A DNA stretch of 64,000 nt from NCBI GenBank assembly GCA_026987075.1, contig JALSNI010000058.1, positions 1 to 64,000 on the forward strand. The letters are read 5' to 3'. Within the stretch, counting starts at the first letter, position 1; each line of letters opens with the position of its first letter. A model generated the notes under the pieces. That model was not told the origin of the DNA, ran no database searches, and saw only the letters and a list, made by a program, of their open reading frames with translations. Below, piece by piece: positions 994 through 18,463 of this stretch. The DNA comes from Persephonella sp. (GTDB lineage: Bacteria; Aquificota; Aquificia; Aquificales; Hydrogenothermaceae). Position numbers and translations under genes: made by a program.

Positions 994-1974
994 TTACTTT
1001 TTGTGGCACATCTGACATAAATATCTATCTCCTGTGTAATCGTTATTGAACATGAATTTGTAGTTTGATGCGTGGGGATTGTGGCAGCTTGAGCATACCA
1101 GTTCTCTTCCCGGTCTTGATGGGTCTGGTCTACCCCTCGTTGGATGTGATTTTCCAAAAACAAACCCAGCTAATACATGGGTTCCTGATGCTTTTTCTGC
1201 ATGACATGAAGTGCAAAGATTCCATATAGGTTTTTTTAGGAAAAAAATGTTGTTTGAGGAGTGGGGGTTATGGCATATGTTACACTGACCTGTAGAAGTG
1301 GGTCCATGGACATACTTTTTGCTCATCCATACTCTTTTTCTGTATTCATGGCAGGAAAAACATTTTTCTGAAATGGGGAAAGGTGTTTCGTATCTCTGAT
1401 AGGAAAGGCCAACGTCTAAATGACAGTAGTTACATGCCCAATTTGCTGATGGTGCATGGACTTTTTTTCGTGAGGTCAGGACTTTATGACAGCTGTAACA
1501 TGGAGATTTCTCTGGAGATTCAGGTATCATTTCTTCTGGAAGAGAGCTCATGTCGTGACATTCTTTACATCTATCTTCATTGCTTCGTGTGTGAAATGGT
1601 TTTTCTTCAAATTTTGCAGGTGGTTCTTCAGACTGCTTGTAGAGTATGGAATATCTGAATATCTCAACAGTTTTCTTTTTCTGTTTTCCATCCTGGTCTG
1701 TGTATGTTATTTCTACGATGTTTTTCCCTGGTTTTATTTTTAATGCTTTGCAGTATACATTCCTTTCTGGATTCATACCGAACATAAAGAAACTTTTGCC
1801 CACCTTAAACTCAAGACTAACACCATTTTCTATTTCATCTTCTGATAGTTTCACAGATATAGATACAAATTCTTCGTTGTGTATGCTGTTTTTGATAGGA
1901 GCTAAAATTTCAAAGCCTTCTGTTATGTGAATAAGTATTGTAAAAATAATAAATATCTGGCTGAAGTTTTTCAT
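994..1974 (-). CDS. octaheme c-type cytochrome with N-terminal Ig-like/adhesion-type domain
   Basis: Signal peptide; 8 CxxCH motifs (CKECH, CYSCH, CNYCH, CFSCH, CNICH, CTSCH, CSSCH, CQMCH); ~120-aa N-terminal beta-type region lacking hemes. Confidence 0.9.
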   Translation of the reverse strand: MKNFSQIFIIFTILIHITEGFEILAPIKNSIHNEEFVSISVKLSEDEIENGVSLEFKVGKSFFMFGMNPERNVYCKALKIKPGKNIVEITYTDQDGKQKKKTVEIFRYSILYKQSEEPPAKFEEKPFHTRSNEDRCKECHDMSSLPEEMIPESPEKSPCYSCHKVLTSRKKVHAPSANWACNYCHLDVGLSYQRYETPFPISEKCFSCHEYRKRVWMSKKYVHGPTSTGQCNICHNPHSSNNIFFLKKPIWNLCTSCHAEKASGTHVLAGFVFGKSHPTRGRPDPSRPGRELVCSSCHNPHASNYKFMFNNDYTGDRYLCQMCHKK

Positions 1975-2026
1975 TTTTTCCCCCAGTTATAAGGAAAATT
2001 ATAAAAAGTATAAAAACTATTTTATA

Positions 2027-3133
2027 TTATTTTTTATGACACATATTACAAAGCTGACTAAATGGTTTTAATAGCATGAAATTATTGTCTGAATTGTGGG
2101 CTTCGTGACAGCTAATACAGGACAGTTCTCTATCTGGATTTGAAGGGTCTTTATATCCTTTTGTAGGATGTGGTCTTCCTAAAAATGTAAATACAACGTG
2201 ACCTCTTAGAACCTTGTCTTCATGGCATGTGGTGCATAAGTACCACGCAGGTTTTCTCAAAAAGTATCTGTTTGGAGATGAGTGAGGATTATGACATTTA
2301 TCGCACATCCCTGCCACTACTGGGTCGTGGTGAAACCTCTTATTATCCCACTCTTTTCTCTTTTTCTTATGACATCTGTAGCATTCATCTCCTTGAGGTT
2401 CTGGCCAGATAAATCTGGACTTACCTTCTAATCTTCTGTTTAATCTTCCAGTTTTTCCTGTGTGACAAGCCGTAGCACACAGCCAGTTTTTAGCAGGTGC
2501 ATGCTTATATTGATATCGTTCTGTTAATTTTTTGTGACACTTGTAACAGTTGGATTTTGTTATGTCTTCAAAGGCAACTCCTTTTTTTTCATTTACTTTC
2601 ATATCATGGCATTGAGAACACACTTTTTCGTTTTTTTCTTTGTGAAAAAAAATTTCTTTATATTTAGGTGGAGGATATTTGTAAGCTCTAAGAATTGGTG
2701 AGGCTAAATATATTTCTACAGATTTTTTTATTGTTTTCCCTTCTGTGGTTTCTGCTAACACTTGTATTATGTTTTTACCGTATCTCAGGTCAATAGATTT
2801 ACAGTAGAAACCTTTATCTGATTTTATCCTGAATCTGAATCGTTCCTTTTTCTTCTTTGGTTTTTTCCCATACATCAGTTTTTCGTCTGGGTCAAGCTCA
2901 AATACTTGAAAGTATGTGATTATTTCTAATTTTTTTATTTTTTGTGTGTTTATTTGCACAACAATAGATGCTGTGTCTTCATAGTGTATGCTGTTTTCTA
3001 TAGGTTGTATTATTCTAACAGGTTCGTTGGGAACGACGGTCAGGTTCAGTCTAAAAACTTTGTCTTCTTTTGCTACTGTAACAGCAAAAATGATAAAAAA
3101 CGCCACTAAAATTTTTACTGCTTTTCTTTTCAT
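2027..3133 (-). CDS. octaheme c-type cytochrome (7 CxxCH + 1 CX3CH), paralogue of downstream gene
   Basis: 7 CxxCH plus CATACH; shared 'PI.NSIH.E' N-terminal region with 994..1974. Confidence 0.9.
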   Translation of the reverse strand: MKRKAVKILVAFFIIFAVTVAKEDKVFRLNLTVVPNEPVRIIQPIENSIHYEDTASIVVQINTQKIKKLEIITYFQVFELDPDEKLMYGKKPKKKKERFRFRIKSDKGFYCKSIDLRYGKNIIQVLAETTEGKTIKKSVEIYLASPILRAYKYPPPKYKEIFFHKEKNEKVCSQCHDMKVNEKKGVAFEDITKSNCYKCHKKLTERYQYKHAPAKNWLCATACHTGKTGRLNRRLEGKSRFIWPEPQGDECYRCHKKKRKEWDNKRFHHDPVVAGMCDKCHNPHSSPNRYFLRKPAWYLCTTCHEDKVLRGHVVFTFLGRPHPTKGYKDPSNPDRELSCISCHEAHNSDNNFMLLKPFSQLCNMCHKK

Positions 3134-3154
3134 TTTCTTCCTATTTAAAGCTTT

Positions 3155-4762
3155 TTATTTAAATTCTTCTCTGATTTCTCCAACATTTTTGACAGGTGTT
3201 ATTCTGTCATATTTAAATTCATCATGGCATGCTGGAGAGCATGAACCTCCTGTTTTTGTCTTCTTATATCTTATTGGGAACAAAATGCCGTTAAAATCTG
3301 TGTATTTCCCTATCATTGTAGGCCATTTTGATGCGTGGGGGTCATGGCATGCAATGCAAGTCCTTCCTTTTTTACCCTGTGTATGTCTCCAGTGGAGATT
3401 TTCGTCTCCATTTCTGAATTTTGTTGCTTTTGTTGTTCTCTTCTCAGTAAACCGTTCTTTTTCTTTGTGGCATGTGAAACACATTACTTCTCCAACTTTC
3501 AGCCCTGTAAGGTAAAACTCTGTAGGGAAAAACTTTTTCAGAGCATATGGGTTGTCTGAGCCGTGAGGATTATGGCAGGCTGCACATCCACCTTTTTTCT
3601 CCACTTCTTTGATTGGCTTGTGCCAGTATTTGTTTTCCTGTAGATGTTTTTTCATGTTAATCAGTTTTTCTCCTGTTTCTTTCTTTTCCACTTCTTTGTC
3701 ATGACAGGATAGACACTGCTGTACCATGGGTTTTTTCAGCATTATCCTGTAATTAGAACCGTGAATGTTGTGGCAGTTTGCACATTCGTCCTTGTCATAA
3801 ACGGCGTCGTGTTTTACTTTTGCTGTTTTTATAAGCTGTTTTAAATCTATCTTTCTTTTTATTTTAGGGTCTTTTACTTTAGAGTGACAGTCTATACAAA
3901 AGTCCATCTTCCAATCTAAAGATGTTATTAGCAGATGTTTATAGTTTGAGGTATGGGGGTCATGACAGTTAAGACAGTTTTGGTTTACAGGTTTGTGTTT
4001 GTATTTAACATTTATATCAACAATCTTCTTGATTTTAAGTTTTTTTGCTTTTTCAGGAGAATGACAGCTTATACAGAGGAGAGGGACTGTCTTTGCTTTG
4101 AGGAGTTTTTGAGTATTGGATTGGTGAGGGTCATGACATTTCAGACATTCTCCTTTTTTTATAGGTTTATGGTCGTATTTTTTTGTATATCTTTCTTTGT
4201 GGCAGGAATAGCACAGCTCATCAACTCTACCTTTTGTTAATGGATATTCTTTACCTATTTTTATAACTTTTCCATGTTTGTCAACCTGATGACATATGGC
4301 ACATGCACCCATTTTAAATGGTCTGTGAAGCACCTTTTTCAGCGGTAGAAACTCTTTCGGGTATTCTTCTAAAGGTAGAGGTTTTATGACTCTTTTAGGT
4401 TTTGGTTTTGGTGCTTTAGCTAACTTTTCTTCCTTTTTTATCTCTTTAAGCTCTTTTTCTAACTCTTTTATTTCTTCTTTTTCCTTTTCTTCTTCTGGTA
4501 GTTTTAATTTGGATAGTTCTATTTCTTCCATCTCCTCTATGTGAACCACACCGTATATATCTCCAGGGTGATGTTTTTCAAAGAAAAGGTTGTGAACTAT
4601 GTTTTTTAGGACAAGGACTGTTTTTTGGGGTATTCTTTTTTGCCATGCATAATAGCCAATAGCTGGAAAAACGACAAGTATAAAAAAAGCTGTCATAATA
4701 AGTATAAATTTTTTTGACCTGAAAACTTTTAGCATCCCCATTAATTTTTTTAGTTTTCCCAT
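3155..4762 (-). CDS. membrane-anchored dodecaheme c-type cytochrome (11 CxxCH + 1 CX3CH)
   Basis: N-terminal TM helix 'FILIMTAFFILVVFPAIGYYAW', long Glu/Lys-rich linker, 11 CxxCH and terminal CSPACH. Confidence 0.9.
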   Translation of the reverse strand: MGKLKKLMGMLKVFRSKKFILIMTAFFILVVFPAIGYYAWQKRIPQKTVLVLKNIVHNLFFEKHHPGDIYGVVHIEEMEEIELSKLKLPEEEKEKEEIKELEKELKEIKKEEKLAKAPKPKPKRVIKPLPLEEYPKEFLPLKKVLHRPFKMGACAICHQVDKHGKVIKIGKEYPLTKGRVDELCYSCHKERYTKKYDHKPIKKGECLKCHDPHQSNTQKLLKAKTVPLLCISCHSPEKAKKLKIKKIVDINVKYKHKPVNQNCLNCHDPHTSNYKHLLITSLDWKMDFCIDCHSKVKDPKIKRKIDLKQLIKTAKVKHDAVYDKDECANCHNIHGSNYRIMLKKPMVQQCLSCHDKEVEKKETGEKLINMKKHLQENKYWHKPIKEVEKKGGCAACHNPHGSDNPYALKKFFPTEFYLTGLKVGEVMCFTCHKEKERFTEKRTTKATKFRNGDENLHWRHTQGKKGRTCIACHDPHASKWPTMIGKYTDFNGILFPIRYKKTKTGGSCSPACHDEFKYDRITPVKNVGEIREEFK

Positions 4763-4773
4763 TTTCCTTCTCT

Positions 4774-5466
4774 CTAATGCCCAGTTTTTTCTTTGCTTTT
4801 TTTCTCAAGTATCTCAATAGATTCTTTTATCAGTTCTTCAGACTCTTCAATCAGCTTATGTTCTGGAGGTGGTGGGGGCAGATACTTTCCTAAATCTTTA
4901 TGTCCAACATGTTTATGGCAGTCTACACAATGGGCTTTGTCTTTGTGTTCTCCTATCTTTACAACTAATTTCCCTGAAAAATATGCTTTATGGGCTATAA
5001 ATGCCCTTTTCTTGTTCATAGTGGCAGCAAGAAGGTTCTCATGACAGTGAAGACAACCACTGTCATAAACAAAATGTCTTCTATGTTCTCTTTTGCCATG
5101 CCAGTCAATAGCATCAGGGTTTTGAAAAACATAAACTTTAAAGTCGTGAAGCCCAACCTGAACTTTGTTTAACAGATAATGTATTGTAGATTTGTGGTTC
5201 AGATGACAATCAGTGCAATGGGCAACAAAACCTGAATCACCCCATCCTCCGTGAATATCTTTTGAGTAAGCCTTATACATAGGAACCATAACGTGACAGG
5301 ATTTGCAAAATTGGGCTCCACCAGTTAACTTGACAACTTCAACGATAACATAAGAAATAACGAGGCCAGCCAGAAGACCAGCCCCTAAAAGAACTGTTCC
5401 AATAAATACCTTTTTCCTTCTGCCTACTTCCTCTGTAGGTTCTTCTTTCTTTTCCTCTGTCCCCAT
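4774..5466 (-). CDS. NapC/NirT-family tetraheme cytochrome, putative quinol dehydrogenase
   Basis: Single N-terminal TM helix followed by CKSCH, CTDCH, CLHCH, CVDCH; NapC-like 'FCKSCHVMVPMYKAYSKDIHGG'. Confidence 0.88.
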   Translation of the reverse strand: MGTEEKKEEPTEEVGRRKKVFIGTVLLGAGLLAGLVISYVIVEVVKLTGGAQFCKSCHVMVPMYKAYSKDIHGGWGDSGFVAHCTDCHLNHKSTIHYLLNKVQVGLHDFKVYVFQNPDAIDWHGKREHRRHFVYDSGCLHCHENLLAATMNKKRAFIAHKAYFSGKLVVKIGEHKDKAHCVDCHKHVGHKDLGKYLPPPPPEHKLIEESEELIKESIEILEKKSKEKTGH

Positions 5467-5483
5467 CCCTCGTTTCCTCTTTA

Positions 5484-6683
5484 TTACCTCTTATTGATTA
5501 CAGGATTTTCTCTGTCGTAATACCTCCGTGGATGACACATAGGAGCACAGGAACCGCCTGTTTTTGTCGGTATGTATCTGAGAGGAGCTTTAATCTTTCC
5601 AAATTTCATATACTTTCTTATGTGGTGCGGTGTTCCTTTTGTTGCATGCCAGTCATGACAGGCTCTGCATGTCCTACCTTTTTTCTGGTTAACATGGACA
5701 TAATGTAGATTGACCTCTCCATTTCTGAAGTTTGTTGCTGTTTTTGTGAGGGGTTCTGTAAATCTTTCTGTTTCGTGACACATGAAACATATATACTGGT
5801 TTATATTAAAGCTTGCGTAAAATGTTTCTGGGAATGGTAGTTTCAGCATTCTAAAGTTGTCAGAACCATGTGGGTTGTGGCACATTGCACAGTCTCCCCA
5901 CTGGATTGGGCCGTGCCAGTCAGGATTTTCATCAAGATGTTTCTTCATATTCATAAGAACTGTTCCATCTTCATCCCTTTTTAGAGGTTTGTTGTGACAT
6001 GTAAGACATACATCCATTGCTGTTGGTTTTCTGAGGAACTTTTCGTTTTCTGAAGCATGGGGATCGTGACAGTTGAGACATCTATCCTTAATAAATACGG
6101 CACCATGTTTGTTTTTTACCTTTTCTACCCACTCTTTTTTGTCAGCATGACAGGATACGCAAAGGTCAAATCTTCTGTCTGCAAACAATCTGTATCTGTG
6201 GTCTTCCTGATGGGGGTCGTGACAGTTTATACACTGGTCTTTTACTGGTGGGTGCATATATGGTTTAGATGTAAACTGCTTCTTCTTATCTTCGTGACAT
6301 GCAAAACATAGGTCGTTAACAGATTTTGCCTTTAACATTCTCATCGTGTCAGATTGGTGAGGGTCGTGACATGCAGTGCACATGCCTGCAGCGACAGGAC
6401 CGTGAACTCTGCTTTTGGTATCCTTTCTTTCATGACACATGTAACACAGGTCAGGAGGTTCTTTTGAGAGGGCATATTTGTTACCGTCTTTTTCTACGTG
6501 ACATATCTCACACTGTCCTATCTTGAAAGGCAAATGCTGAACTTTCTTATTAGGAACTATCGGCGGCTGTTCTTTTTTCACTGAAGCCTCCTGTTTAGAG
6601 GAACTTTTTTCCGTTTGAGCAAATGCAAAGTTAATAAAAACTAAAATTAACAGAAGCCTTAAACCTTTAACCCTCTTTCTCAT
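5484..6683 (-). CDS. dodecaheme c-type cytochrome (11 CxxCH + 1 CX3CH), periplasmic
   Basis: Signal peptide; 11 CxxCH plus terminal CAPMCH; co-linear with 3155..4762 product. Confidence 0.9.
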   Translation of the reverse strand: MRKRVKGLRLLLILVFINFAFAQTEKSSSKQEASVKKEQPPIVPNKKVQHLPFKIGQCEICHVEKDGNKYALSKEPPDLCYMCHERKDTKSRVHGPVAAGMCTACHDPHQSDTMRMLKAKSVNDLCFACHEDKKKQFTSKPYMHPPVKDQCINCHDPHQEDHRYRLFADRRFDLCVSCHADKKEWVEKVKNKHGAVFIKDRCLNCHDPHASENEKFLRKPTAMDVCLTCHNKPLKRDEDGTVLMNMKKHLDENPDWHGPIQWGDCAMCHNPHGSDNFRMLKLPFPETFYASFNINQYICFMCHETERFTEPLTKTATNFRNGEVNLHYVHVNQKKGRTCRACHDWHATKGTPHHIRKYMKFGKIKAPLRYIPTKTGGSCAPMCHPRRYYDRENPVINKR

Positions 6684-6724
6684 CCTGCTGCTCCTTTATT
6701 ATTTGGTTTTGAGAATTCCAATTC

Positions 6725-6740
6725 ATTGATTTATGTCAAT
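6725..6740. promoter_or_regulatory. FNR/CRP-family-like box ATTGA-N6-TCAAT
   Basis: attgatttatgtcaat: perfect TTGA-N6-TCAA dyad about 42 nt upstream of the 6683 start codon. Confidence 0.4.
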
Positions 6741-6807
6741 TAAAAATATATTTTATATAGTTACCATATCAAATACAAAAGAATATGTATTTATTATTAA
6801 CCATTAT

Positions 6808-6895: not shown

Positions 6896-6924
6896 TTGAC
6901 AGTTTTTATTTTAATAATTATTAT
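6896..6924 (+). promoter_or_regulatory. sigma70-type promoter TTGACA-N17-TATTAT for plus-strand cytochrome operon
   Basis: TTGACA at 6896-6901, TATTAT at 6919-6924, 17-bp spacer, ATG at 7010 with gggagg SD. Confidence 0.6.
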
Positions 6925-7009: not shown

Positions 7010-7765
7010 ATGAAGAGGCTTGTATTGAGCGGTATAATTGCCGCAGTTGGTATTATGACAACAAGTTCATTGGCTCTGATTGATGGTTCTAAACACGACC
7101 TTTCAGACCCAAATAACAAAATCAGAGCAGCAAATCCAGCAGACGTTAATAACGAAATCTGTGCATTCTGTCATACTCCTCACGGTTCTAACACAGACTT
7201 TGTGGGAGCTCCATTGTGGAACAAAGCTATTGATACTACTGTCACCTATCAGGTTTACGGTGGTGGACAGACAACTGGCGGGACAACAGTTGACCAGCCT
7301 GGTGATGTTTCAAGGGCATGTCTTTCCTGTCACGATGGTGTAAACGCTATCAACTCTATAATCAACCTTCCCGGTTCAGGTGGATGGTCTTCTACAGGAA
7401 ATCTGATTGCATTTACAACTGACGGTGGAGCGACTACAATTCCAGCAGGAACAGCAGCAACAATGCCTCCTGGAATTACACAGATTGGAACAGACCTTAG
7501 AAATGACCACCCAGTTGGTGTAATGTATAGAGGTGATGATGCTAATCCACCTGCAAGTCTCGTTCCTACAAATACAGCTCTTCCTGCAGGTTTTGTTATA
7601 GCGGGAGACAGAGATGGTAATCCTGGTCCAACAGTCGGAGACTTACTGAGAGGTGGAAAAGTTGAGTGCGTATCCTGTCACGACCCACACCTTGGAGAAA
7701 ATCCAACGTTCCTGAGACTGCCTAACGACAACAGTGCGCTCTGTCTGACATGTCACGCAAAATAA
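7010..7765 (+). CDS. tetraheme c-type cytochrome, OmcE-like extracellular cytochrome filament candidate
   Basis: Signal peptide; KHDLS...CAFCHTPH...PLWN...CLSCHDG...DHPVGV.Y...VECVSCHDPH...LR...CLTCHAK arrangement. Confidence 0.85.
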   Translation: MKRLVLSGIIAAVGIMTTSSLALIDGSKHDLSDPNNKIRAANPADVNNEICAFCHTPHGSNTDFVGAPLWNKAIDTTVTYQVYGGGQTTGGTTVDQPGDVSRACLSCHDGVNAINSIINLPGSGGWSSTGNLIAFTTDGGATTIPAGTAATMPPGITQIGTDLRNDHPVGVMYRGDDANPPASLVPTNTALPAGFVIAGDRDGNPGPTVGDLLRGGKVECVSCHDPHLGENPTFLRLPNDNSALCLTCHAK

Positions 7766-8865
7766 TAGGAAAAGTTTTAGTTCTATTTGTAATAGGGATA
7801 TTTATCTATTCGTGTGGTGGGGCCAAGAAACCTCAGAAAATAGAAAAGGTATTCTGGCCCCTTCCCCCTGAAGAACCAAGGATACTTTATCTTGGCAGTT
7901 ATCATGGGGAATCAGACTTTAAAGGAAGAAGTGCCCTTGATGTGTTGTTAGGTGAACCTGAAAGAGAGATTCCTAAAAACCTGATAAAACCCTATGGCGT
8001 GGCTGCAAGATTTGGAAGGATTCTGGCAGGGGATACCGTAGCTGCCGTCGTGTTTGTTATTGACCCTAAAGGTAAGAAGGTTTCTTTTATTGGTGATAAA
8101 GCGATGGGAAAATTGAGAATTCCTGTTGGTATTGATATAGATAAGGAAGGCAAGGTTTATGTCGCTGATGCAAGGAATCAAAGGGTTTTTGTGTATGACC
8201 TGAAAGGAAAATTTAAAACGGCTATTGGTGAGCCAGAAGGCCCTGGTAAATTGGAAAGACCAGCTGGTATAGCTATAAATGAAAAAAATCAGAGATTATA
8301 TGTTGTTGACGTTATGGACCACAGGGTAAAGGTCTATTCCCTTGTTGATGGTAAGTTCTTGTTTGCATTTGGAAAAAGAGGAAGAAACCCCGGAGAGTTT
8401 AACTTCCCAACAAACATAGCTGTAGATAGGAGAAATGGTAATGTTGCCGTTGTTGATACTATGAATTTTAGAGTTCAGATTTTTAACCAGGATGGTAAGT
8501 TTCTCAGAACTTTTGGGAAGTTAGGTATAGTTCCAGGAACATTTGCAAGACCAAAGGGTATAGGTATAGACAGTGAAGGACACATATACGTAGCAGATGC
8601 TGCCTTTAATAATGTGCAAATATTTGATGATAAGGGAAATTTACTGCTGTGGATAGGAAAGTTTGGTTTTGGACCTGGTGAGTTTAACCTTCCTGCAGGG
8701 CTATATGTTGATAGGGCAGATAGGATTTATGTTGCGGATTCAATGAACAAAAGAGTGCAGGTATTCCAGTATTTGAGTGAAGCCTGGAAGAAAAAGTATC
8801 CAGAAAAATACAGGGAGCTAAAACTTTATAAACCTTCAAATCTCAAAAAAACCCAGGAAAAATAA
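7750..8865 (+). CDS. NHL-repeat beta-propeller lipoprotein
   Basis: Lipobox-like 'FIYSCGGA'; repeated NHL units 'GIAINEKNQRLYVVDVMDHRVKVYS', 'IAVDRRNGNVAVVDTMNFRVQIFN'; 16-nt overlap with upstream gene. Confidence 0.88.
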   Translation: MSRKIIGKVLVLFVIGIFIYSCGGAKKPQKIEKVFWPLPPEEPRILYLGSYHGESDFKGRSALDVLLGEPEREIPKNLIKPYGVAARFGRILAGDTVAAVVFVIDPKGKKVSFIGDKAMGKLRIPVGIDIDKEGKVYVADARNQRVFVYDLKGKFKTAIGEPEGPGKLERPAGIAINEKNQRLYVVDVMDHRVKVYSLVDGKFLFAFGKRGRNPGEFNFPTNIAVDRRNGNVAVVDTMNFRVQIFNQDGKFLRTFGKLGIVPGTFARPKGIGIDSEGHIYVADAAFNNVQIFDDKGNLLLWIGKFGFGPGEFNLPAGLYVDRADRIYVADSMNKRVQVFQYLSEAWKKKYPEKYRELKLYKPSNLKKTQEK

Positions 8866-8867
8866 CA

Positions 8868-9512
8868 ATGATTTTTCCTTATATATTTCTGTTTTTCTTA
8901 ATGACTGCTTATTTATATGCTGCTGAAGATTTTGTTTCCCTTCCTGTGGAGGAAGGAGGGGAATATGAAAAAGGGATAAGAGCAACAAAACACAACCTTG
9001 CTGAGTATAAAGGTAAATTCCTGAACCCGAACATAGCAGGAGAATATAATCTTGCCCTGTGTATGTGGTGTCACACCCAGAATATAGATGTTACCTTTGT
9101 GGATGTTGAATACAAATGGGACCCGGAAAAAGAAGTAGATAAATTCCCTGTTTATGGACAGACAAAAAAAGGGCCGGTATTGAAGAGTGTAGCCCCATCT
9201 TCAATGGTATGCCTCAGCTGTCATGATGGAGCAAATGCTCCAAACATCACTTTTGGAAAGTCTTCTACAGGAACAAGTGTTCACAGTCATCCAGTGTTTG
9301 TTATTTACCGGAAAGACAGAAAGTATCTCAGACCTTACAACAGTCCGCTTATAGGATGGGAAGGTAAAAAACATTTTGTTTATGACCTGATTAAGGATTA
9401 CAACGGAAGGTTGCAGTGTGCAAGCTGTCATGACCCACATACAACCAATCCACTGTTTTTAAGGTCAAAAAACAGGGGAAGTAAACTGTGTACAGGATGC
9501 CATGCGTTATAA
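8868..9512 (+). CDS. tetraheme c-type cytochrome, divergent member of OmcE-like family
   Basis: CMWCH, CLSCHDG, CASCHDPH, CTGCH; N-terminal 'TKHNLAEY'. Confidence 0.85.
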   Translation: MIFPYIFLFFLMTAYLYAAEDFVSLPVEEGGEYEKGIRATKHNLAEYKGKFLNPNIAGEYNLALCMWCHTQNIDVTFVDVEYKWDPEKEVDKFPVYGQTKKGPVLKSVAPSSMVCLSCHDGANAPNITFGKSSTGTSVHSHPVFVIYRKDRKYLRPYNSPLIGWEGKKHFVYDLIKDYNGRLQCASCHDPHTTNPLFLRSKNRGSKLCTGCHAL

Positions 9513-10494
9513 ACTGATACTATTTTGCTTGTTTATATGGATGTTAGCATCTGTTTCTGGGAAGGAGTTACTGTTTCCAGAGCCAAAACCAGGCATAAAG
9601 CCACACATAAAGTATGTGGGACAGGTTCCCCCTTACGATTATGAGAAGAACAGTAGTTTCTTTGAAATTATATTTGGGGAGGAGAGTGAGCTTGCGAATC
9701 CAGACTTTATAGGAAAACCATACGGTGTTGTTTATGCAAGAGGATTCCTGTTTTTTACAGATACAGCCCATGGGGTAATTTTTTCTTATAGCTTCAAGAC
9801 AAAAAATCTCAAAATTTTAGAACTTCCCATTAGACTTAGACTTCCTATGTGCCTTGCCTACTCTAAAAAGCTAAATGTTCTGTTTGTTTCTGATGCAACC
9901 TTAAAGAAAGTCTTTGGATTTGACAGTAAGGGAAGACTTGTTTTTGCTGTAGGAAAGAGAGGTGAGTTTAAAAAACCAGTTGGTATAGCAGTTGATGACA
10001 ACTTAGAAAGGGTTTATGTAGTGGATACCTTTGACCATAGAGTAAAGGTTTATGACTTTAACGGCAATTTTATCAGAGGATTTGGACATAGAGGTGATAA
10101 AGACGGAGAGTTTAACTATCCTACAAACATAGCTGTTAACAGAAAGAATGGAAATATCTATATTACTGATACCCAGCTTTTCAGGGTTCAGGTTTTTAAT
10201 AAAAACTTTGAGCACATTACGACTATAGGCGGTAATGGTAACATTCCTGGCAGATTTGCCCGTCCTAAAGGCATTGGTGTTGATAGTGATGGGAACATAT
10301 ACGTGGTTGATGCGGCTTTTAATAATTTCCAGATTTTTTCCCCAGAAGGAGACGTTCTTTATTACATAGGAGAAGCAGGAACGCAGCCTGCGAAATTCTT
10401 ACTTCCTGCAGGTATGTATATAGATGAGAATGATAGGATTTACATTGTGGATTCATTCAATAAAAGAATACAGATATTCCAATATTTAAAGTGA
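9502..10494 (+). CDS. NHL-repeat beta-propeller protein
   Basis: NHL units such as 'GIAVDDNLERVYVVDTFDHRVKVYD'; signal peptide; overlaps upstream cytochrome gene. Confidence 0.88.
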   Translation: MRYKLILFCLFIWMLASVSGKELLFPEPKPGIKPHIKYVGQVPPYDYEKNSSFFEIIFGEESELANPDFIGKPYGVVYARGFLFFTDTAHGVIFSYSFKTKNLKILELPIRLRLPMCLAYSKKLNVLFVSDATLKKVFGFDSKGRLVFAVGKRGEFKKPVGIAVDDNLERVYVVDTFDHRVKVYDFNGNFIRGFGHRGDKDGEFNYPTNIAVNRKNGNIYITDTQLFRVQVFNKNFEHITTIGGNGNIPGRFARPKGIGVDSDGNIYVVDAAFNNFQIFSPEGDVLYYIGEAGTQPAKFLLPAGMYIDENDRIYIVDSFNKRIQIFQYLK

Positions 10495-10501: not shown

Positions 10502-11470
10502 ATGATGAAAAGATTTTTATGGTTATTTTTAGTTTTTATCTCTTTGGCTCAGGCTTATCAGGATTTTAGCTGGAAAATAGACCCACAGCTTAAAAAGAAA
10601 GTAGTAGCAGAAGTGGGAAATAAGAAGATAACAGAGATGGACGTCCAGAGATATATGAAGGTGCTCCTTCCTATGAATTTTTATCACAGAAACATAACAG
10701 AAAAAAAGAAAAGAGAGCTTAGGAAAAAAGCTCTTGATTATTTGATAAATAGAGAGCTTCTATACTATGAGGCAAAGAAAAAGGGAATAAAAGTGCCTGA
10801 AAAACAGATAGACAAGCTGATAAAAGAGTTAGAAAAGAGATACAAATCAAGAGAAAACCTTGAAAAGATGCTAAAGGAAACTGGTATAACTTTGAAACAG
10901 TTTAGGGAAGAACTGAAGAAAAGATTGATGATAGACAAGCTCCTAAGTAAATATGTAAGTGTAAAACTAACAGATAAGCAATTGGAAGAATACTATCAGA
11001 AAAATAAATATAAGTTTAAAGAGCCAGAAGCGCTGAAAATTAGATACATATACATAAAGGTTGACCCTTCAAAGCCTAAAGGAAGACAGATAGCAAGAGA
11101 AAGGGCAGAAAAGGCTTATAAGGAAATAATCTCAGGGAAAGATTTTGGAGATGTAGCATACAGATATTCAGACGACCTGAGCAGAATAAAAGGAGGAGAA
11201 ATAGGATTTGTCCACAAAGGAAGGTTTGAGAAAAAAGTGGAAGAAGAGATATACAAGCTAAAAGTTGGACAGATAAGCAAAATAATAGAAACAGAGCTTG
11301 GATTTCACATAATAAAAGTTGAAGGTAAAAGACCTTCACGAATTGTCCCCTTTAAGCAGATAAAAGATAAACTTAAGAAGGAACTTACAGAAAAACTGAA
11401 AAGAGAAAAGTATGAAGCTCTGCTAAAAGATGCAAAAAAAGATTTAAAAGTGGTAGTTTACGATAAATAA
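10502..11470 (+). CDS. periplasmic parvulin-type peptidylprolyl isomerase (SurA/PrsA-like)
   Basis: Signal peptide; SurA N-like region; parvulin signature 'YRYSDDLSRIKGGEIGFVHKGRF...LGFHIIKVEGKRPSR'. Confidence 0.9.
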   Translation: MMKRFLWLFLVFISLAQAYQDFSWKIDPQLKKKVVAEVGNKKITEMDVQRYMKVLLPMNFYHRNITEKKKRELRKKALDYLINRELLYYEAKKKGIKVPEKQIDKLIKELEKRYKSRENLEKMLKETGITLKQFREELKKRLMIDKLLSKYVSVKLTDKQLEEYYQKNKYKFKEPEALKIRYIYIKVDPSKPKGRQIARERAEKAYKEIISGKDFGDVAYRYSDDLSRIKGGEIGFVHKGRFEKKVEEEIYKLKVGQISKIIETELGFHIIKVEGKRPSRIVPFKQIKDKLKKELTEKLKREKYEALLKDAKKDLKVVVYDK

Positions 11471-11487
11471 CCAATTGGTGGGAAGGG

Positions 11488-13830
11488 ATGAAAAAGAGGT
11501 ACCTTATCACTGCACTTATTACGGGGGTGGCATTAACAAATGTAAGCACATTGAACTATTTTGCCATATCAGCTTCTGCTTCTTCTCAAGGATATCAGGC
11601 AGAGAGAAGTAAAAAAACAAAAAAAGACAAACCATCAAAAACAGAGAAAATTTTACCTGATATTTATAGAGTAAGAATGTTAATTGCCCAGAATACTACT
11701 TCAGTAAAAAAAGAGAAAGCTTTTAAAACCCAAAAAGACAAGTATTTCTATTCACTTCAGTTAGGAACTTTTAAAAAAAGAAAAAATGCTGAAAAATTCT
11801 TAAAGAAACTACCAAAAGAACTGAGAGACAGTGCTTTTATATATAAGACGGATAAAGGATACTATACAGTAAGATATGGACTTTTTGATAACTACAACCT
11901 CCTGAAAGAAATACAGGAGAAACTTCCTGTCAGTTCTATTATAGTAAAAACAGATATAACAAAAGTTGCAAAAAAAGAGGAAATAGTTGCAGAAGAAAAG
12001 AAAATTGTAGAAAAAGTTAAAAAGAAGGTGGAAAAAACTGAAAAGAAAGAAGAAAAGATAACCATAGAGGAAGAAGAAAAAATTATCCCTGAATTTGAAG
12101 AAGAAGAGATAAGTCTATTTGAAGAAGAAAAAACTGAAATTCCTTTATATAAAAAGGTAATAGGTGCTGTTTTCTTTGTTCCAGCTTACATGCTTACCCA
12201 TAAACAGAGAGGTTTTTGGGGAAAGGTTGAGTTCACATACAAGATGGAAAATTATAAAGACCCTTATAGAAAGACAACAAGAAAATCTTTTAGACAGTAT
12301 TACGAACTAAACTATGAAGGTTATGTATACAGCCCAAGATTGCTTACTTATAAGTTGGGTGGTAACTTTATCAGAGAAGATTCCTCTCAGAAGACAGGAG
12401 GTTCCAAAACAGATACCACTTCTAAACTTATTGGTTATGACATTGAATTTAACATATTGAAAAACTCAAGATTTCCTGTAAATCTTTTTGCCAGAAAAAC
12501 CCAGTCTCCCCTATGGTATACATATTATGACAGAACATCTTATATAGAAAGGAAAACTGATACATATGGTCTTTTTGGAAGTATAAGGCTTGTAAATTCC
12601 AATGTTAACTACAGCTATAGAAAATCAAAATCAAAATCTGTAGGTATAGATTTCTCTGAAGACAGGAAATCTGAAGAGTTTTCATTTGGTTATGGAAAAA
12701 ATTGGATTAATAAATATTTGAATATAGCTTACAAAAAAAACATAGACGATTACATACAGAGATATCCTAACATATCTTCTTACAGGAAAGTATATCAGGA
12801 CATAAATAACTTTAACATGGATTATAGATGGAAAATCTCCAGAAAATCAAACGTAAATTCTAATCTTAGATACTATAGTAACTCCTACTCAAACATAAAA
12901 AATCTGACAGGAAACGTTAATTATATGTGGATGCCTTCTCAAAAATTAACTGCCAATTTTGGATTGTCAGCAACAAGGTCTGACTCAAAAAATTACCAGT
13001 TAACATTTTTTTCTTTTAATGAGAGTCTGTCATATGTAATCAATGAAAACTGGAATATGAACCATAATCTTATTCTGTTTACTTCTTCTGGAACCAATGC
13101 AAACCAAAAACTTCTCAATACAGGGGTGAACATCAGTTATAACAGAAATCTGTCAGAAACCTTTTCTGTTTTTGGAGGAACAGGTTTGTCAGGGCAGATT
13201 GAATCTGGAAATGTAAATAGAGTAGGGGGAACAGTATCGGTAAATGGAGGGATAAACAAGAGGTTTTCTTTTTTAAATTCAGACTTTACGCTTTCAGGTT
13301 CTGCATCTGAATATAATTCCAGCAAGAATGATAAAAGCACCACATACAACATAAATGAGCGTTTTAATGCGTACCTTCTAAACAACCTAAGGTTTGAGCA
13401 CAGCATCAATTATTACTACCAGGACAGTAAATATTACAGACCTTCTGGGGGATTTTCTAAAACTAACTATGATAATCTTGAAGTATCAAATGCCCTTAGG
13501 TATAGGAAACTTCTCGGATGGAAAGGAAAGTTAAGCTCAGTTATAGGTATGAAATACTATTATGGAAAAAACAGACCAGAAAGGATATATCCTTATGCAA
13601 ATTTAAACATTAGTTATAAACTTACGAGGAGACTTTTGTATAAGTTGTCTCTTGACGTCCATAGAGACTCTTACTACAACACAAACTATGCCACTTTATC
13701 TACAGGTATTGATTACAGAATTAGAAGCCTATTCTTCAAATGGGATTTCCAATACTTTTATGAAGATAACAAAAACTACGGCAAAAAGCATAACTACATA
13801 ACCCAGTTTAAAGTTTACAGAGTTTTCTAA
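11488..13830 (+). CDS. outer-membrane beta-barrel protein with periplasmic SPOR domain
   Basis: SPOR-like 'YSLQLGTFKKRKNAEKFLKKLP...YYTVRYGLFDNYNLLKEIQEKLP', charged linker, long alternating beta region, C-terminal Phe 'YRVF'. Confidence 0.8.
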   Translation: MKKRYLITALITGVALTNVSTLNYFAISASASSQGYQAERSKKTKKDKPSKTEKILPDIYRVRMLIAQNTTSVKKEKAFKTQKDKYFYSLQLGTFKKRKNAEKFLKKLPKELRDSAFIYKTDKGYYTVRYGLFDNYNLLKEIQEKLPVSSIIVKTDITKVAKKEEIVAEEKKIVEKVKKKVEKTEKKEEKITIEEEEKIIPEFEEEEISLFEEEKTEIPLYKKVIGAVFFVPAYMLTHKQRGFWGKVEFTYKMENYKDPYRKTTRKSFRQYYELNYEGYVYSPRLLTYKLGGNFIREDSSQKTGGSKTDTTSKLIGYDIEFNILKNSRFPVNLFARKTQSPLWYTYYDRTSYIERKTDTYGLFGSIRLVNSNVNYSYRKSKSKSVGIDFSEDRKSEEFSFGYGKNWINKYLNIAYKKNIDDYIQRYPNISSYRKVYQDINNFNMDYRWKISRKSNVNSNLRYYSNSYSNIKNLTGNVNYMWMPSQKLTANFGLSATRSDSKNYQLTFFSFNESLSYVINENWNMNHNLILFTSSGTNANQKLLNTGVNISYNRNLSETFSVFGGTGLSGQIESGNVNRVGGTVSVNGGINKRFSFLNSDFTLSGSASEYNSSKNDKSTTYNINERFNAYLLNNLRFEHSINYYYQDSKYYRPSGGFSKTNYDNLEVSNALRYRKLLGWKGKLSSVIGMKYYYGKNRPERIYPYANLNISYKLTRRLLYKLSLDVHRDSYYNTNYATLSTGIDYRIRSLFFKWDFQYFYEDNKNYGKKHNYITQFKVYRVF

Positions 13831-13840
13831 GGAGATAAAC

Positions 13841-14836
13841 ATGAGATATATGTTTATTTTATTTATTATGCTTACTGTTTCTCTGAAAGCAGAAGAAAGG
13901 CTTGTATGGCCTCCGCCGCCAGATACTCCCAAAGTACAGTTTATAAGAGAAATCAAAAAAATTGAGGATTTTGAGGAAGATAAAGGTTTTTTCAGTAGAT
14001 TTTTAGACATAGTTTTTGGGAAAAAGAAAAAAATTATGGTAAAACCTTTTGGCTCTTACATAAAAGGAAATAAACTATACTTCACAGATACAGGTTCAAA
14101 AGCTGTATTTATATTTGATTTCAAAAGAAAATCAGTAAAAATTATTGACCATATTGGGGATTATGCTCTTTCTTCTCCTATCGATGTCGTTGTAGACAGT
14201 AAAGGAAGAATTTATATCTCTGATTCTGTTTTAGGAACGGTTTTTATAACAAACGAAGACGGAGATTTCCTTGGGAAAATAGGTTCTACAACTATAATCA
14301 GACCTACAGGGCTTGCCGTAGACAATAAGAGAAACAGGCTGTTTATCACAGATACTGTAGGTGGAAAAATATATGTTGTTTCACTAAAAGATGGAAAACT
14401 TATTATGAAAATAGGAAAGTTAGGAACAGGCAAAGGAGAATTTAATAGACCAACCTTTATAACGTTAGACAGAAAAGGAAATCTTTATGTTGTAGATTCA
14501 ATGAATGCAAGGATTCAGATATTTGACAAAAATGGGGTGTTCCTCCGTATGTTTGGGGAACGGGGAACAGTTATAGGGACATTTGCAAATCCACGGGGAA
14601 TAGCTGTTGATAGTGATGGGAACATATATGTTTCAGACACACTTTTATCTGCAGTTCAAGTTTTTGACCCTAAAGGAAGACTCCTTCTTGTGATTGGTAA
14701 TTATGGAACAGGAAAAGGACAGTTTGCTTATCCTGCTGACATATCTATATCAAAAGATAATTATATATTCGTAAGTGATTCTTATAATATGAGAATTCAG
14801 GTCTTAAGGTACCTGAAGGGAGGTGCTGGACAATGA
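13841..14836 (+). CDS. NHL-repeat beta-propeller protein
   Basis: NHL units 'FITLDRKGNLYVVDSMNARIQIFDKNG', 'IAVDSDGNIYVSDTLLSAVQVFD'; signal peptide. Confidence 0.88.
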   Translation: MRYMFILFIMLTVSLKAEERLVWPPPPDTPKVQFIREIKKIEDFEEDKGFFSRFLDIVFGKKKKIMVKPFGSYIKGNKLYFTDTGSKAVFIFDFKRKSVKIIDHIGDYALSSPIDVVVDSKGRIYISDSVLGTVFITNEDGDFLGKIGSTTIIRPTGLAVDNKRNRLFITDTVGGKIYVVSLKDGKLIMKIGKLGTGKGEFNRPTFITLDRKGNLYVVDSMNARIQIFDKNGVFLRMFGERGTVIGTFANPRGIAVDSDGNIYVSDTLLSAVQVFDPKGRLLLVIGNYGTGKGQFAYPADISISKDNYIFVSDSYNMRIQVLRYLKGGAGQ

Positions 14837-16902
14837 AACTGGCAAGGATTATCATTTTAGTTGCAGGAATGGTCTTTTCTGCAAATGCTGGAATAGAACA
14901 AACCCTCCATAATCTTTCTATAACAGGTCCTGGAAATATAAAAGCAACGACGGAAACGGAGATATGTGTCTTCTGCCATATTCCCCACCATGAGAGGGAA
15001 GGAACACCTCTGTGGAACAGAAAGATGCCAACTACTGTTTATAATCTATACGACAGTGAGTTTATTGGAAGGATTAACTATCCTACACCTATGCAGCCTT
15101 CAGAAGTTGAGGGACAGCCGGGAATTGTTTCAAGGCAGTGCTTGTCCTGTCATGATGGAACAGTTGCAATAGGGGCTGTCTACATCGTTAGAGGAACGGA
15201 GCTTGGAAACAGTGTTATTCAGATGCAAAACGTCAACCCAGATGGAACACTGCCTTCAACACTCAGGACATTTATAGGCTCTGACCTTTCTGTCCATCAT
15301 CCTGTTGCAGTAGAGTATAATCCTAACATCCAGAAAACATTCGGAGATGGAACAGTAAAAACAGTAGAGCTTAGAGACCCTCATCCGTTGCCTCCTATAA
15401 AACTGTATAACTATGGTGGTAAATCATATGTTGAGTGCACCTCCTGTCACGACCCCCACAAGCAGAATAAACAGTTTTTGAGAGTTGACGTTGGAAATCT
15501 CGCACAGGATTTTAAGCAAACGTGCATTTCCTGTCACGACAAGCCCGGTTGGACAGGGAGTGCCCACGATACACAAACTCTAACATATACAGACCCAGAC
15601 ATAACAGCTAAATATGGAGAAGGTTCTCCTGTTACAGTTGCAGATTTAGGGTGTGGTAACTGTCATACACCTCACCACTCACAGGGTAAACCATTACTCA
15701 GAAAAGTAGAAGAAAATACATGTTTTACTGGAGCATCGTCATCTTCTAATACAGCTCCATGTCATGGAAGTGGTGGGGCAAAAGATATAGAAACCTTACT
15801 GCCTCCAGATAGACCCTTTGGACATCCTGTAAAAACGATATCTGGAATACATACAATATTAGATGTTCTTTATGGCTATACATCAACAGAGGTAGACCCT
15901 GCAGGCAGTTTCAGTGTTAAATTTAGCGATTCTAAGCATGCTGAATGTATGGACTGTCACAATCCCCACAAAGCATCCCCCGGTAATCATGCAACACCAT
16001 CTGATGCATCTGGCTGGTATCCTCAAACACCGTCAAATGCTGTATCAAATGTTCTTCAGGGTGTTTACGGTGTTGAACCTGTATGGCCATCAAGATGGAC
16101 ACAGCCTACAACATACAACACAACGGCTGAAGCTCAGAAAGAATATCAGATATGTATGAAATGCCACTCAAGATGGGGTCTTGGAGACAGCCCTAATGGG
16201 GACTGCACTACATCATTTACTTCAGACCAGTCAAACATAGTCCTCACAGACCAGTCCTGTGAATTTAATCCATACAACAGGTCAGCCCATCCTGTCGTGA
16301 TGACAACCAATGAGATGGGAGCATTGAGTGGATGGAATCAGGCAAACGGAAGATATGCTGCTCCGTTAACAGCAGCCCAGCTTCTTCCCCCATGGAATGC
16401 AAATGTGGGAAATCAAACAATGTATTGCACAGACTGTCACGGTGCAGATGCAGAAGACGGCGTTGACCCAAGGGGTCCCCACGGTTCAACCCATAAGTTT
16501 ATGTTAAAGGGCCCAAACACAAACTGGCCTACAAAACCAGATGGAACCCTTTACACAACAGGAGATGTAAAGAATGGAACTACGCAGGGGCTGTTCTGCA
16601 CCAACTGTCATGACCTGACGCAGGCTGACGTTCATATGTTACAGCGACCAAGACCTATGAGAAGTATTGCCTGTGTCAAATGTCACGTTGCTGTTCCCCA
16701 CGGCTCTCCTGTATCAAGACTTATTGGATACGAAACAATGCCAGAGCCTTACAACTACAACTATAATGGAAACCTGCAGCTTAGAATGAGAGGATTTAAG
16801 TGGAACACAACAATGAGTAACAGAGATGCATATGCTCCTTCCTGTGGTGGAGGAAGAATGTGTCACAACACAAATGCAGGAGGTTATGATTCATATCCGT
16901 AA
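14833..16902 (+). CDS. large multiheme c-type cytochrome (10 CxxCH plus CX12CH and CX5CH candidates) with OmcE-like N-terminal module
   Basis: Direct motif count; N-terminal HNLS...CVFCHIPH...PLWN...CLSCHDG...HPVAVEY...CTSCHDPH module; 4-nt overlap with NHL gene. Confidence 0.88.
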   Translation: MKLARIIILVAGMVFSANAGIEQTLHNLSITGPGNIKATTETEICVFCHIPHHEREGTPLWNRKMPTTVYNLYDSEFIGRINYPTPMQPSEVEGQPGIVSRQCLSCHDGTVAIGAVYIVRGTELGNSVIQMQNVNPDGTLPSTLRTFIGSDLSVHHPVAVEYNPNIQKTFGDGTVKTVELRDPHPLPPIKLYNYGGKSYVECTSCHDPHKQNKQFLRVDVGNLAQDFKQTCISCHDKPGWTGSAHDTQTLTYTDPDITAKYGEGSPVTVADLGCGNCHTPHHSQGKPLLRKVEENTCFTGASSSSNTAPCHGSGGAKDIETLLPPDRPFGHPVKTISGIHTILDVLYGYTSTEVDPAGSFSVKFSDSKHAECMDCHNPHKASPGNHATPSDASGWYPQTPSNAVSNVLQGVYGVEPVWPSRWTQPTTYNTTAEAQKEYQICMKCHSRWGLGDSPNGDCTTSFTSDQSNIVLTDQSCEFNPYNRSAHPVVMTTNEMGALSGWNQANGRYAAPLTAAQLLPPWNANVGNQTMYCTDCHGADAEDGVDPRGPHGSTHKFMLKGPNTNWPTKPDGTLYTTGDVKNGTTQGLFCTNCHDLTQADVHMLQRPRPMRSIACVKCHVAVPHGSPVSRLIGYETMPEPYNYNYNGNLQLRMRGFKWNTTMSNRDAYAPSCGGGRMCHNTNAGGYDSYP

Positions 16903-17395
16903 GATAGCTACAGTGCTGGCTTTTGTATATGTTTTTGTGTTTCCCTCTTATGGAAAAATGGATGATGTGGAGGAGATAAAAAATGTAGTGAAGATGTATA
17001 ACAGGATAGTTATTGAGGAGAGCAAAAACGATAGACACAGGGATATAAGAACATTTATCAAAATGATGGAAGAAATAGCAACACATGATATTGCAAGAAA
17101 GCTGTACATATGGATTCAGTCATGGCATGAGAATGGTCTTTTTATGAATGCCAGACTGGAAAATTTAAGCTTTGAACAGGTAGATATTAAAGATGGAAAA
17201 GCTGAAGTTACAACGAAAGAGAACTGGATTTACAATTATTTTGACAGAAGGATTGGCAAGGAAGTTCTTTCAGACAGAGAGATTTTCTATAGGGTAAAAT
17301 ACACCCTCAAGAAAGTTAAAAATAGATGGCTTTTGTTCCGTATTAAGGTTCTTGAAGAAAAACAGAAAAAAACTAATCAGGAGGAAAAAAGATGA
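16886..17395 (+). CDS. small secreted protein of unknown function, possibly NTF2-like fold
   Basis: ORF track begins at 16826; signal peptide 'MIHIRKIATVLAFVYVFVFPSYG' favours ATG at 16886; overlaps neighbours on both sides. Confidence 0.7.
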   Translation: MIHIRKIATVLAFVYVFVFPSYGKMDDVEEIKNVVKMYNRIVIEESKNDRHRDIRTFIKMMEEIATHDIARKLYIWIQSWHENGLFMNARLENLSFEQVDIKDGKAEVTTKENWIYNYFDRRIGKEVLSDREIFYRVKYTLKKVKNRWLLFRIKVLEEKQKKTNQEEKR

Positions 17396-17709
17396 AAAAA
17401 GTAGCAGGATTAGTAGCACTGATGTTATCGTTTACAACTTCTTATGCAGTTGACGGAAAGGAAATTTTTGAAAAAAATCAGTGTCCTATTTGCCACAAAG
17501 AAACAAAAGATGCTATAGGACCGTCTCTCAAAACAATAGCAGAGTTTTATAAAAATAATCCAAAACAGTTAAAGCAGTTTCTCCTGGGACAAGCAGACCC
17601 TATAGTATGGCCTGATAGATTTAATATGATGAAAACCCAGATGGGAAAGTTCAGAGCAATGAGCGAAGAAGAATTAGATGCTCTGATTAAGTTTATATTG
17701 AAACATTAA
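17392..17709 (+). CDS. monoheme class I cytochrome c
   Basis: Signal peptide; 'KNQCPICHKE' CxxCH, later Met ligand region 'FNMMKTQMGKF'; 4-nt overlap with upstream gene. Confidence 0.88.
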   Translation: MKKVAGLVALMLSFTTSYAVDGKEIFEKNQCPICHKETKDAIGPSLKTIAEFYKNNPKQLKQFLLGQADPIVWPDRFNMMKTQMGKFRAMSEEELDALIKFILKH

Positions 17710-17730
17710 GGGGCAAAGGCCCCTTTTTTT
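17710..17730 (+). terminator. Rho-independent terminator GGGGC-AAAG-GCCCC-T7
   Basis: Hairpin 17710-17723 followed by T run at the end of the cytochrome operon. Confidence 0.85.
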
Positions 17731-18463
17731 ATTTATCGTGACAAGCTCTACACAGATTACTGTTGTTGTTACCGTCACCAGATCTTAAAAATCTTGGAGC
17801 GTTTAGATGTGGGTTGTGGCAGGAGACACACTCTACTTTCCCATTTCTCAGTAAGTCTCCTATTGAAGGCCCCCCACTTCCATCAGGGTCACCAGAAACA
17901 TTCCATCCAGTTAAAGGTGTTGATGTAGGTTTCAAACTGGCAGGTGGGTTTGCATCATTACCCCTGTAAACAACTCCAATAGGGTGGTCATCTCTCAGGT
18001 CATAATTTCCGCCTGCACCGTTTTTACCCACTGCAAATGGAAATGGCATTCTCCATGGAGCTGTTGAACCTCTGTAGTTCAGGTAAGTTCCATTAGGGTC
18101 ATATCCTCCAGAACCAGGCATATTTATAACGACGTTAACACCAGAAACGCCGTCATGACAGGATAAACATGCTCTTGAAACATCTCCCGGCTGGTCAACT
18201 GTTGTTCCACCAGTTGTCTGTCCGCCACCGTAAACCTGAAATGTCACAGTAGTATCAATAGGTTTGTTCCACAGAGGAGCTCCTGTAAAATCACTATTTG
18301 AACCGTGAGGTGTATGGCAAAATACGCACACCTCGTTTGTTCCACCATTAGCAGGGTCACTGTAAGTAGACAGGTTGTGAACTGTTGCCCTGATGTCCTC
18401 TGTTGCTGCAATTGAAATTCCTGCAAAAACCAATGTTGCAAGTCCTGCTGCTAAAGTTCTCAT
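17729..18463 (-). CDS. tetraheme c-type cytochrome, OmcE-like, close paralogue of 7010..7765
   Basis: CVFCH, CLSCH, CVSCH, CRACH; 'QVYGGGQTTGGTTVDQPGDVSRACLSCHDGV' shared with 7010 product. Confidence 0.87.
   Translation of the reverse strand: MRTLAAGLATLVFAGISIAATEDIRATVHNLSTYSDPANGGTNEVCVFCHTPHGSNSDFTGAPLWNKPIDTTVTFQVYGGGQTTGGTTVDQPGDVSRACLSCHDGVSGVNVVINMPGSGGYDPNGTYLNYRGSTAPWRMPFPFAVGKNGAGGNYDLRDDHPIGVVYRGNDANPPASLKPTSTPLTGWNVSGDPDGSGGPSIGDLLRNGKVECVSCHNPHLNAPRFLRSGDGNNNSNLCRACHDK

Follow-up and report, generated by a model that had tools for sequence, protein, structure and literature searches.

The closest described relatives of the locus reported here are the Uet gene clusters, for which gene roles are taken from published accounts (PMC10734462, PMC9751133, PMC5371394). 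Such a cluster encodes UetJ, a cytochrome with 11-12 hemes, together with the tetraheme cytochrome UetA, the peptidyl-prolyl isomerase (PPIase) UetB, the barrel UetC, the triheme cytochromes UetD/E/G and the NHL proteins UetH/I (PMC10734462). The same kind of cluster goes by the name MHCR in Ca. Thiomicrorhabdus electrophagus, which was obtained by enrichment at a cathode powered by a deep-sea vent (PMC9751133); Ca. Tenderia electrophaga has a homologous cluster whose triheme genes were among the most highly expressed at the cathode (PMC5371394); overall, Uet/MHCR clusters have been linked to cathode growth (PMC5371394, PMC9751133, PMC13293256). We analysed a 64,000-nucleotide stretch (hereafter the window) of contig JALSNI010000058.1 (C58) from a 1.66 Mb Persephonella-like genome (Hydrogenothermaceae), whose nearest named relatives are Persephonella metagenome-assembled genomes (MAGs). 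Its first 22 kb hold a conserved block of genes, g1 to g17, which we read, with a probability of roughly 0.78, as a Uet-type trans-envelope conduit for extracellular electron transfer, assembly and electron flow being deduced from gene content, homology, synteny and the conservation of heme ligands.

The outer half of the block matches the Uet arrangement of Ca. Tenderia electrophaga, Ca. Thiomicrorhabdus electrophagus, Azoarcus and Gallionella. On the plus strand an operon runs from g6 through g15. Within it g6 (7010-7765), an OmcE-like tetraheme cytochrome and candidate filament subunit, takes the UetA position; g10 (10502-11470), a SurA/PrsA-type PPIase (PF13616 3e-21, with SurA_N), takes that of UetB; and g11 (11488-13830), in which a SPOR domain (6e-9) is combined with a large outer-membrane β-barrel ending in a C-terminal Phe, takes that of UetC. 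The UetJ homologue is g13 (14833-16902), a 12-heme cytochrome with 10 CxxCH motifs plus one CX13CH and one CX5CH. NHL β-propellers corresponding to UetH/I are encoded by g7 (7750-8865; six-bladed, PF01436 3e-36, a probable lipoprotein with lipobox IYSC), g9 (9502-10494) and g12 (13841-14836), the last two with signal peptides. The terminal cytochrome c assembly gene is represented by g17 (18585-21791, minus strand), a ResB-CcsA (CcsBA) fusion (PF01578 7e-35, PF05140 9e-27), and the gene order UetA-B-C...NHL-UetJ-Ccs is shared. Families were assigned with Pfam and NCBIfam profiles, and the Uet assignment itself was made through gene content and matching taxa (Thiomicrorhabdus, Azoarcus/Aromatoleum, Gallionellaceae). 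The first-pass annotation of this DNA had treated the layout as unclassified, a view that gives way to homology with the Uet/MHCR cluster (PMC10734462, PMC9751133).

A scan with the g13 alignment against one genome per species returned 79 loci, distributed among Campylobacterota, Nitrospirota, Bacteroidota/Ignavibacteriota, Pseudomonadota, a single Thermodesulfobacteriota species and Aquificota. The Pseudomonadota homologues are 29-32% identical to g13, and in the fuller loci of that phylum a tetraheme gene is followed by those for a PPIase, a barrel, trihemes, propellers, an 11-heme protein and cytochrome c assembly. The g13/UetJ tree gathers all 37 Pseudomonadota sequences into a single clade (support 100) and sets those from Nitrospirota, Bacteroidota, Campylobacterota and Aquificota on the opposite side; the Persephonella, Aquificaceae and Campylobacterota sequences are placed close together.

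Homology at the UetC position is remote but significant. Comparison by hhalign of g11-type barrels with the barrels at the UetC position in Pseudomonadota, these standing in for the Tenderia protein itself, reached 98.7% (E 2e-16; 504 columns); cross-comparisons with reversed or shuffled profiles stayed above E 0.01. A barrel family set against its own reversal does score (E 5e-8 and 6e-5); periodicity contributes, yet these matches are far weaker and extend over fewer columns. An AlphaFold2 model of g11 places a many-stranded barrel after the N-terminal SPOR domain, and the best Foldseek matches of the model were outer-membrane barrels, mostly TonB receptors with MtrB third, at low TM-scores. 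This supports the outer-membrane barrel proposed at first pass, the Foldseek result supporting 'large outer-membrane barrel' and nothing narrower. The SPOR domain was found in both Persephonella-type barrels tested and in none of the other tested barrels, from Campylobacterota, Nitrospirota and Pseudomonadota. Since domains of this type bind septal peptidoglycan, the conduit may have a tether to the cell wall.

The locus departs from the described Uet clusters in its periplasmic half. No triheme UetD/E/G gene occurs in the window, and the locus is therefore filed as a Uet variant rather than as canonical Uet. It has instead a divergent operon on the minus strand, read in the order g5, g4, g3, g2, g1: a soluble, MtrA-like dodecaheme cytochrome with a cleavable-looking signal (g5, 5484-6683; 11 CxxCH plus CX3CH); a tetraheme membrane cytochrome of the NapC/NirT/NrfH family (g4, 4774-5466); a second dodecaheme cytochrome with a TM-like segment as uncleaved N-terminal membrane anchor (g3, 3155-4762; again 11 CxxCH plus CX3CH); and two octaheme cytochromes, g2 (2027-3133; 7 CxxCH plus one conserved CX3CH) and its paralogue g1 (994-1974; 37% identical, 8 CxxCH, Paired_CXXCH), the latter with a signal peptide and an N-terminal β-rich domain. 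A third propeller, the OmcE-like g8 and g16, g14, g15 and the SPOR domain of the barrel are further additions. The same division was seen across loci of at least 12 kb, with g2 pooled with g1 and g3 with g5. At least two triheme open reading frames (ORFs) were present in 22 of 29 Pseudomonadota loci, with g1, g4 and g5 in none of the 29, against 0 of 15 loci from Aquificota and Campylobacterota, where g5 was found in seven, g4 in six and g1 in five; the loci are often cut and the counts are lower bounds. On this comparison of sequences the locus is a distinct Uet/MHCR subtype with its own periplasmic half and not a wholly new layout.

A joint g5/g3 profile matched the MtrA chain of the Mtr complex (6r2q_A, an entry whose sequence file labels the chain oddly) with E 3e-23, and the two paralogues are 47% identical. 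Neither reaches the 192-bit cut-off of TIGR03508 (MtrA/DmsE decaheme), g3 scoring 122 bits and g5 116 bits, and by these scores both are MtrA-like but not MtrA. The likeness to MtrCAB/MtoAB thus comprises g5 and g3 together with a large barrel that has MtrB among its best fold matches, a similarity at the level of fold; it is offset by 12 hemes against 10 and by the lack of an MtrC-type protein. The first-pass label of a non-MtrCAB layout is, given the resemblance of g5 and g3 to MtrA, too simple. Its NapC/NirT-type membrane cytochrome, on the other hand, was borne out: g4 scores 86.7 bits against a gathering score of 24.1 bits for PF03264 (2e-24), has an N-terminal transmembrane segment and finds its nearest structure in NrfH (2j7a, 9e-5). 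From its family it is a candidate quinol/quinone link, g1 is a probable periplasmic carrier and g5 a candidate barrel-inserted or periplasmic wire. The predicted set of multiheme periplasmic cytochromes is likewise supported by gene content (g1, g2, g3 and g5).

The tetraheme cytochromes connect the locus to the OmcE nanowire of Geobacter. Against solved structures g6 matched OmcE (7tfs) at 1.5e-19 and 9yuq, a 16-chain entry of a multiheme cytochrome, at 5e-21. Its paralogue g16 (17729-18463, minus strand; 55% identical) matched OmcE at 4e-16, and a combined g6/g16 profile found only OmcE (1.6e-28) and 9yuq (9e-27). OmcE-like tetrahemes are present as first described and number three, with the proviso that the divergent g8 (8868-9512, plus strand; OmcE 6e-9) lacks one of the OmcE distal His residues. 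Residues 6-237 of g13 also align with OmcE (2e-20) and are followed by a C-terminal multiheme head. In a 43-row alignment including OmcE, the g13 N-terminus and UetA-type tetrahemes, the four CxxCH His residues and the four OmcE distal His residues are kept in 41-43 rows. Both g6 and g16 contain exactly eight His, four proximal and four distal, corresponding one-to-one with those of OmcE, and have their last heme motif, as OmcE does, at the extreme C-terminus; four c-type hemes and the distal His set of an OmcE-type filament are therefore in place. Across 88 g13/UetJ N-termini nearly all keep the eight His, the few exceptions being Nitrospirota: 37 of 37 Pseudomonadota and 13 of 13 Aquificota have all eight, as do all Campylobacterota with letters in that region. 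The differences from OmcE are a low overall identity and the additional head of g13. Identity of the cytochromes as nitrite or hydroxylamine enzymes was considered and rejected, only short local matches far below the cut-offs being obtained; the closest structures of g6 and g16 are, as given above, OmcE and 9yuq. We infer that g13 would join a filament subunit to a docking head, with g6 and g16 as its polymerising partners, and judge filament formation, given the conduit, to be somewhat more likely than not. With the OmcE signature in UetA and in almost all UetJ proteins tested, the vague label 'undecaheme cytochrome' gives way to a definite structural prediction.

Two further systems invite comparison. 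The Oet and propeller-PPIase-16-heme-26-heme operons (PMC5539420, PMC10553843) share a six-bladed propeller, a PPIase, a barrel and nanowire-type cytochromes with the block, and the first-pass expectation of NHL and PPIase genes beside such cytochromes is confirmed by PMC5539420. The Persephonella block differs in having neither 16- nor 26-heme cytochromes; no cytochrome in it exceeds 12 hemes and it falls outside the Oet type. Three Nitrospirota loci (L124, L129 and L136, including Thermodesulfovibrio) have a g13-like 9-heme gene next to 26-heme, 15/16-heme and PPIase genes and may bridge the Uet and Oet types of cluster. The Pcc clusters of Desulfurobacterium and Thermovibrio (PMC4245776) are also porin-cytochrome clusters of thermophilic vent bacteria. 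A g13 profile search, in contrast, gave matches in 16 of 136 Aquificota genomes, limited to four genera, two families and one order, so that Pcc appears, as far as compared, to be a separate system.

All genes named at first pass were found where they had been placed; the stretch from 994 to 18463 holds 16 genes, and the same totals of 64 CxxCH and 5 atypical heme motifs were obtained. The conserved block nonetheless runs beyond 18463, to 21791, since it also takes in g17. By gene, CxxCH motifs number 8 (g1), 7 (g2), 11 (g3), 4 (g4), 11 (g5), 4 (g6), 4 (g8), 10 (g13), 1 (g15) and 4 (g16), against a mean of no more than about 0.1 per protein in shuffled versions of the same proteins. The five atypical motifs look real on the evidence of their conservation: the CX3CH of g2, g3 and g5 was found in all family members tested, and C297, C310 and H311 of the g13 CX13CH are invariant in nine homologues; the last motif of g13, CX5CH, is conserved in part only. 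Two small genes of the plus-strand operon also belong to the conserved block. These are g14 (16886-17395, with 16886 the likely start), a small conserved secreted protein for which Pfam and NCBIfam searches gave no confident family and which is kept beside g13 in Aquificota and many Campylobacterota loci, and g15 (17392-17709), a monoheme cytochrome c (PF00034 6e-11).

In relatives with contigs that cover the whole block, G015 among them, the 17 genes are collinear and identically oriented, with 42-96% protein identity; g17 adjoins the block wherever relatives' contigs extend that far, and the flanks vary. The Aquificaceae genome G060 has these families in a rearranged order, with g1, g5-g9, g11-g15 and g17 present and g2, g3, g4, g10 and g16 not found within the 20 kb read. 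Homologues of g1 occur in clusters of Aquificaceae and Sulfurimonas. The barrel gene is present in 8 of 14 genomes of the genus, a patchiness that marks the block as not essential. Base composition offers no hint that the block was imported recently, GC content at third codon positions (0.24-0.37) being like that of sampled genes elsewhere in the window (0.25-0.36). Second, solitary g13/UetJ copies were seen away from the main block at L052:1471-3582 (G015) and L054:1426-3588 (G011), both terminating in Met/Gly-rich stretches. Near-Persephonella copies of the block also occur on contigs titled Bacteroidetes and Flavobacteriales (L069, L095), which are probably mis-binned, and several block genes are split in one MAG (L031, G008) through sequencing errors or decay.

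Upstream of g5, in the intergenic region, lies a Crp/Fnr-type palindrome, ATTGATTTATGTCAAT (6725-6740, minus strand), which is kept in all six genomes aligned. A looser form of the pattern was found once within the window against 0.7 expected, not beyond chance, and weight is accordingly placed on the conservation of the site and on the company of its counterparts genome-wide. The exact pattern has seven sites in the host genome against none for a reversed control, and five relatives gave the same contrast. Besides that in the window, the sites are at C2:1042, C9:13557, C62:9763, C77:2580, C78:34441 and C78:54302 of the host assembly (G000); they precede NapA, close to which a Crp-family regulator is encoded; an NO reductase and MoaA; an operon for a heme-copper oxidase; a cluster of rhodanese, sulfur-transport and molybdoenzyme genes; and a pair of copper-receptor and thioredoxin-like genes. 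This company makes the g5 operon a predicted member of a nitrate/anoxia regulon, the shared site hinting at when the periplasmic half is expressed and not at the direction of electron flow. The pattern (ATTGAYNNANRTCAAT) appears to define a compact Crp/Fnr-type regulon of NapA, NO reductase, MoaA, heme-copper oxidase and the g5 operon, and it also occurs in relatives including G015. The g6 operon would be served by a sigma-70-like promoter of its own, TTGACA-17-TATTAT (6896-6924, plus strand), which has 11 of 12 consensus bases and is conserved in close relatives.

In the proposed conduit g4, as a NapC/NrfH-type protein, would exchange electrons with the quinone pool, and the periplasm would be crossed by way of membrane-anchored g3 and soluble g5, g1, g2 and g15. 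An MtrA-like dodecaheme, most likely g5, would enter the barrel g11; outside, the multiheme head of g13 would dock on the barrel while its OmcE-type N-terminal domain faced g6 and g16 polymers. The three propellers, g10 and g17 would see to folding, assembly and the attachment of heme. In chemolithoautotrophs of this sort electrons would more likely travel inward: conductive sulfides, minerals with Fe(II) or adjacent cells would supply them, and nitrate or oxygen would be the final acceptor. Given the conduit, we lean only slightly to this direction, by analogy with relatives enriched on cathodes, and the flow could run the opposite way. The host genome encodes NapA, NO reductase, heme-copper oxidases and hydrogenases, with which either direction is feasible. 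Several observations tell against the conduit interpretation as a whole. The barrel and g13 are absent from the near-complete genomes G001 and G006 and hence patchy within the genus; the link of g11 to UetC is remote and its AlphaFold2 model has a moderate mean pLDDT of 56; an AlphaFold2 monomer of g6, built from a 10-row alignment, had a pLDDT of 36 and was left unused; and g4 could serve another reductase. Moreover, the function of Uet systems in general is argued from enrichment, transcript and genomic evidence rather than from knock-outs, and for Persephonella it is predicted from sequence.

The same apparatus might work outward, g4 oxidising menaquinol and the chain passing electrons to S0, Fe(III) or Mn(IV) outside the cell when both nitrate and oxygen are scarce, an option with somewhat less than even odds in our estimation. 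Proteins of the NapC/CymA type are known chiefly for oxidising quinols, and the Crp/Fnr-type site of the g5 operon is common to the NapA and NO reductase genes, that is, to an anoxic-respiration regulon; the relatives sharing the present subtype, however, are Sulfurimonas, Hydrogenimonas and Persephonella, mostly chemolithoautotrophs. An undecaheme cytochrome has been reported in the Mn reducer Ca. Dechloromonas occultata (PMC13264449) and such conduits are reversible in principle, but for the best-studied relatives the electron donor in enrichment was a cathode (PMC5371394, PMC9751133). The promoter motif shared with nitrate and NO genes could also be enlisted for a periplasmic electron reservoir or nitrogen-oxide respiration module, in which the cytochromes would act as an electron buffer for NapA and NO reduction, with the barrel an unrelated porin. 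Pointing the same way, g13 matches NrfA, and g3/g5 match NrfB, weakly and locally, and the structure nearest g4 is NrfH. We consider such a module improbable: no protein reaches the cut-off of a nitrite-reductase model, g6 and g16 are closest to OmcE and 9yuq with all ligands kept, and the barrel, PPIase and propellers accompany g13 in Aquificota, Campylobacterota, Nitrospirota and Pseudomonadota alike.

A surface conduit might also operate without filaments, g6, g8 and g16 then being small extracellular or periplasmic shuttles. Their overall identity to OmcE is low, their polymers are a prediction, and even for Geobacter it is contested whether cytochrome filaments are needed physiologically (PMC11077965). 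Shuttles nevertheless seem to us the less likely option, the eight His of g6 and g16 aligning one-to-one with those of OmcE, in which one heme ligand is supplied by the neighbouring subunit (PMC9473688).

The surroundings of the block were inspected by eye. Directly downstream of g1, at 206-875 of the window, are a HEPN-like gene and a small partner, and similar-sized ORFs follow g1 in G009. On the other side a ModABC-like molybdate/tungstate transporter and CcdA/TlpA-like genes adjoin the block (22066-24741 and 24738-26065), neighbours that fit the needs of molybdoenzymes and of cytochrome c maturation.

Members of Persephonella live at hot vents and oxidise hydrogen and sulfur, and in the open-licence literature we found no report of an extracellular electron conduit in the genus. 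The present locus places a full conduit gene set with nanowire-type subunits, and with a different inner half, in this deep-branching vent lineage. Uet systems thereby split into two subtypes in which the outer half is common and the periplasmic half swapped, suggesting that the outer half is an exchangeable module. More speculatively, in a reading that we hold to be less likely than not, Uet systems overall may be OmcE-type nanowire machines with UetJ/g13, one filament subunit joined to a docking head, as the dedicated filament base or cap; the Aquificota/Campylobacterota subtype would link to the quinone pool through an MtrA-like dodecaheme and a NapC-type protein, would be switched on with nitrate respiration, and would serve vent autotrophs drawing electrons from conductive sulfide chimneys at high temperature. 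Feeding on chimney current has been proposed for the cathode-enriched Thiomicrorhabdus (PMC9751133), and the Persephonella locus makes it possible to ask whether thermophilic vent chemolithoautotrophs, too, feed on current through sulfide chimneys.

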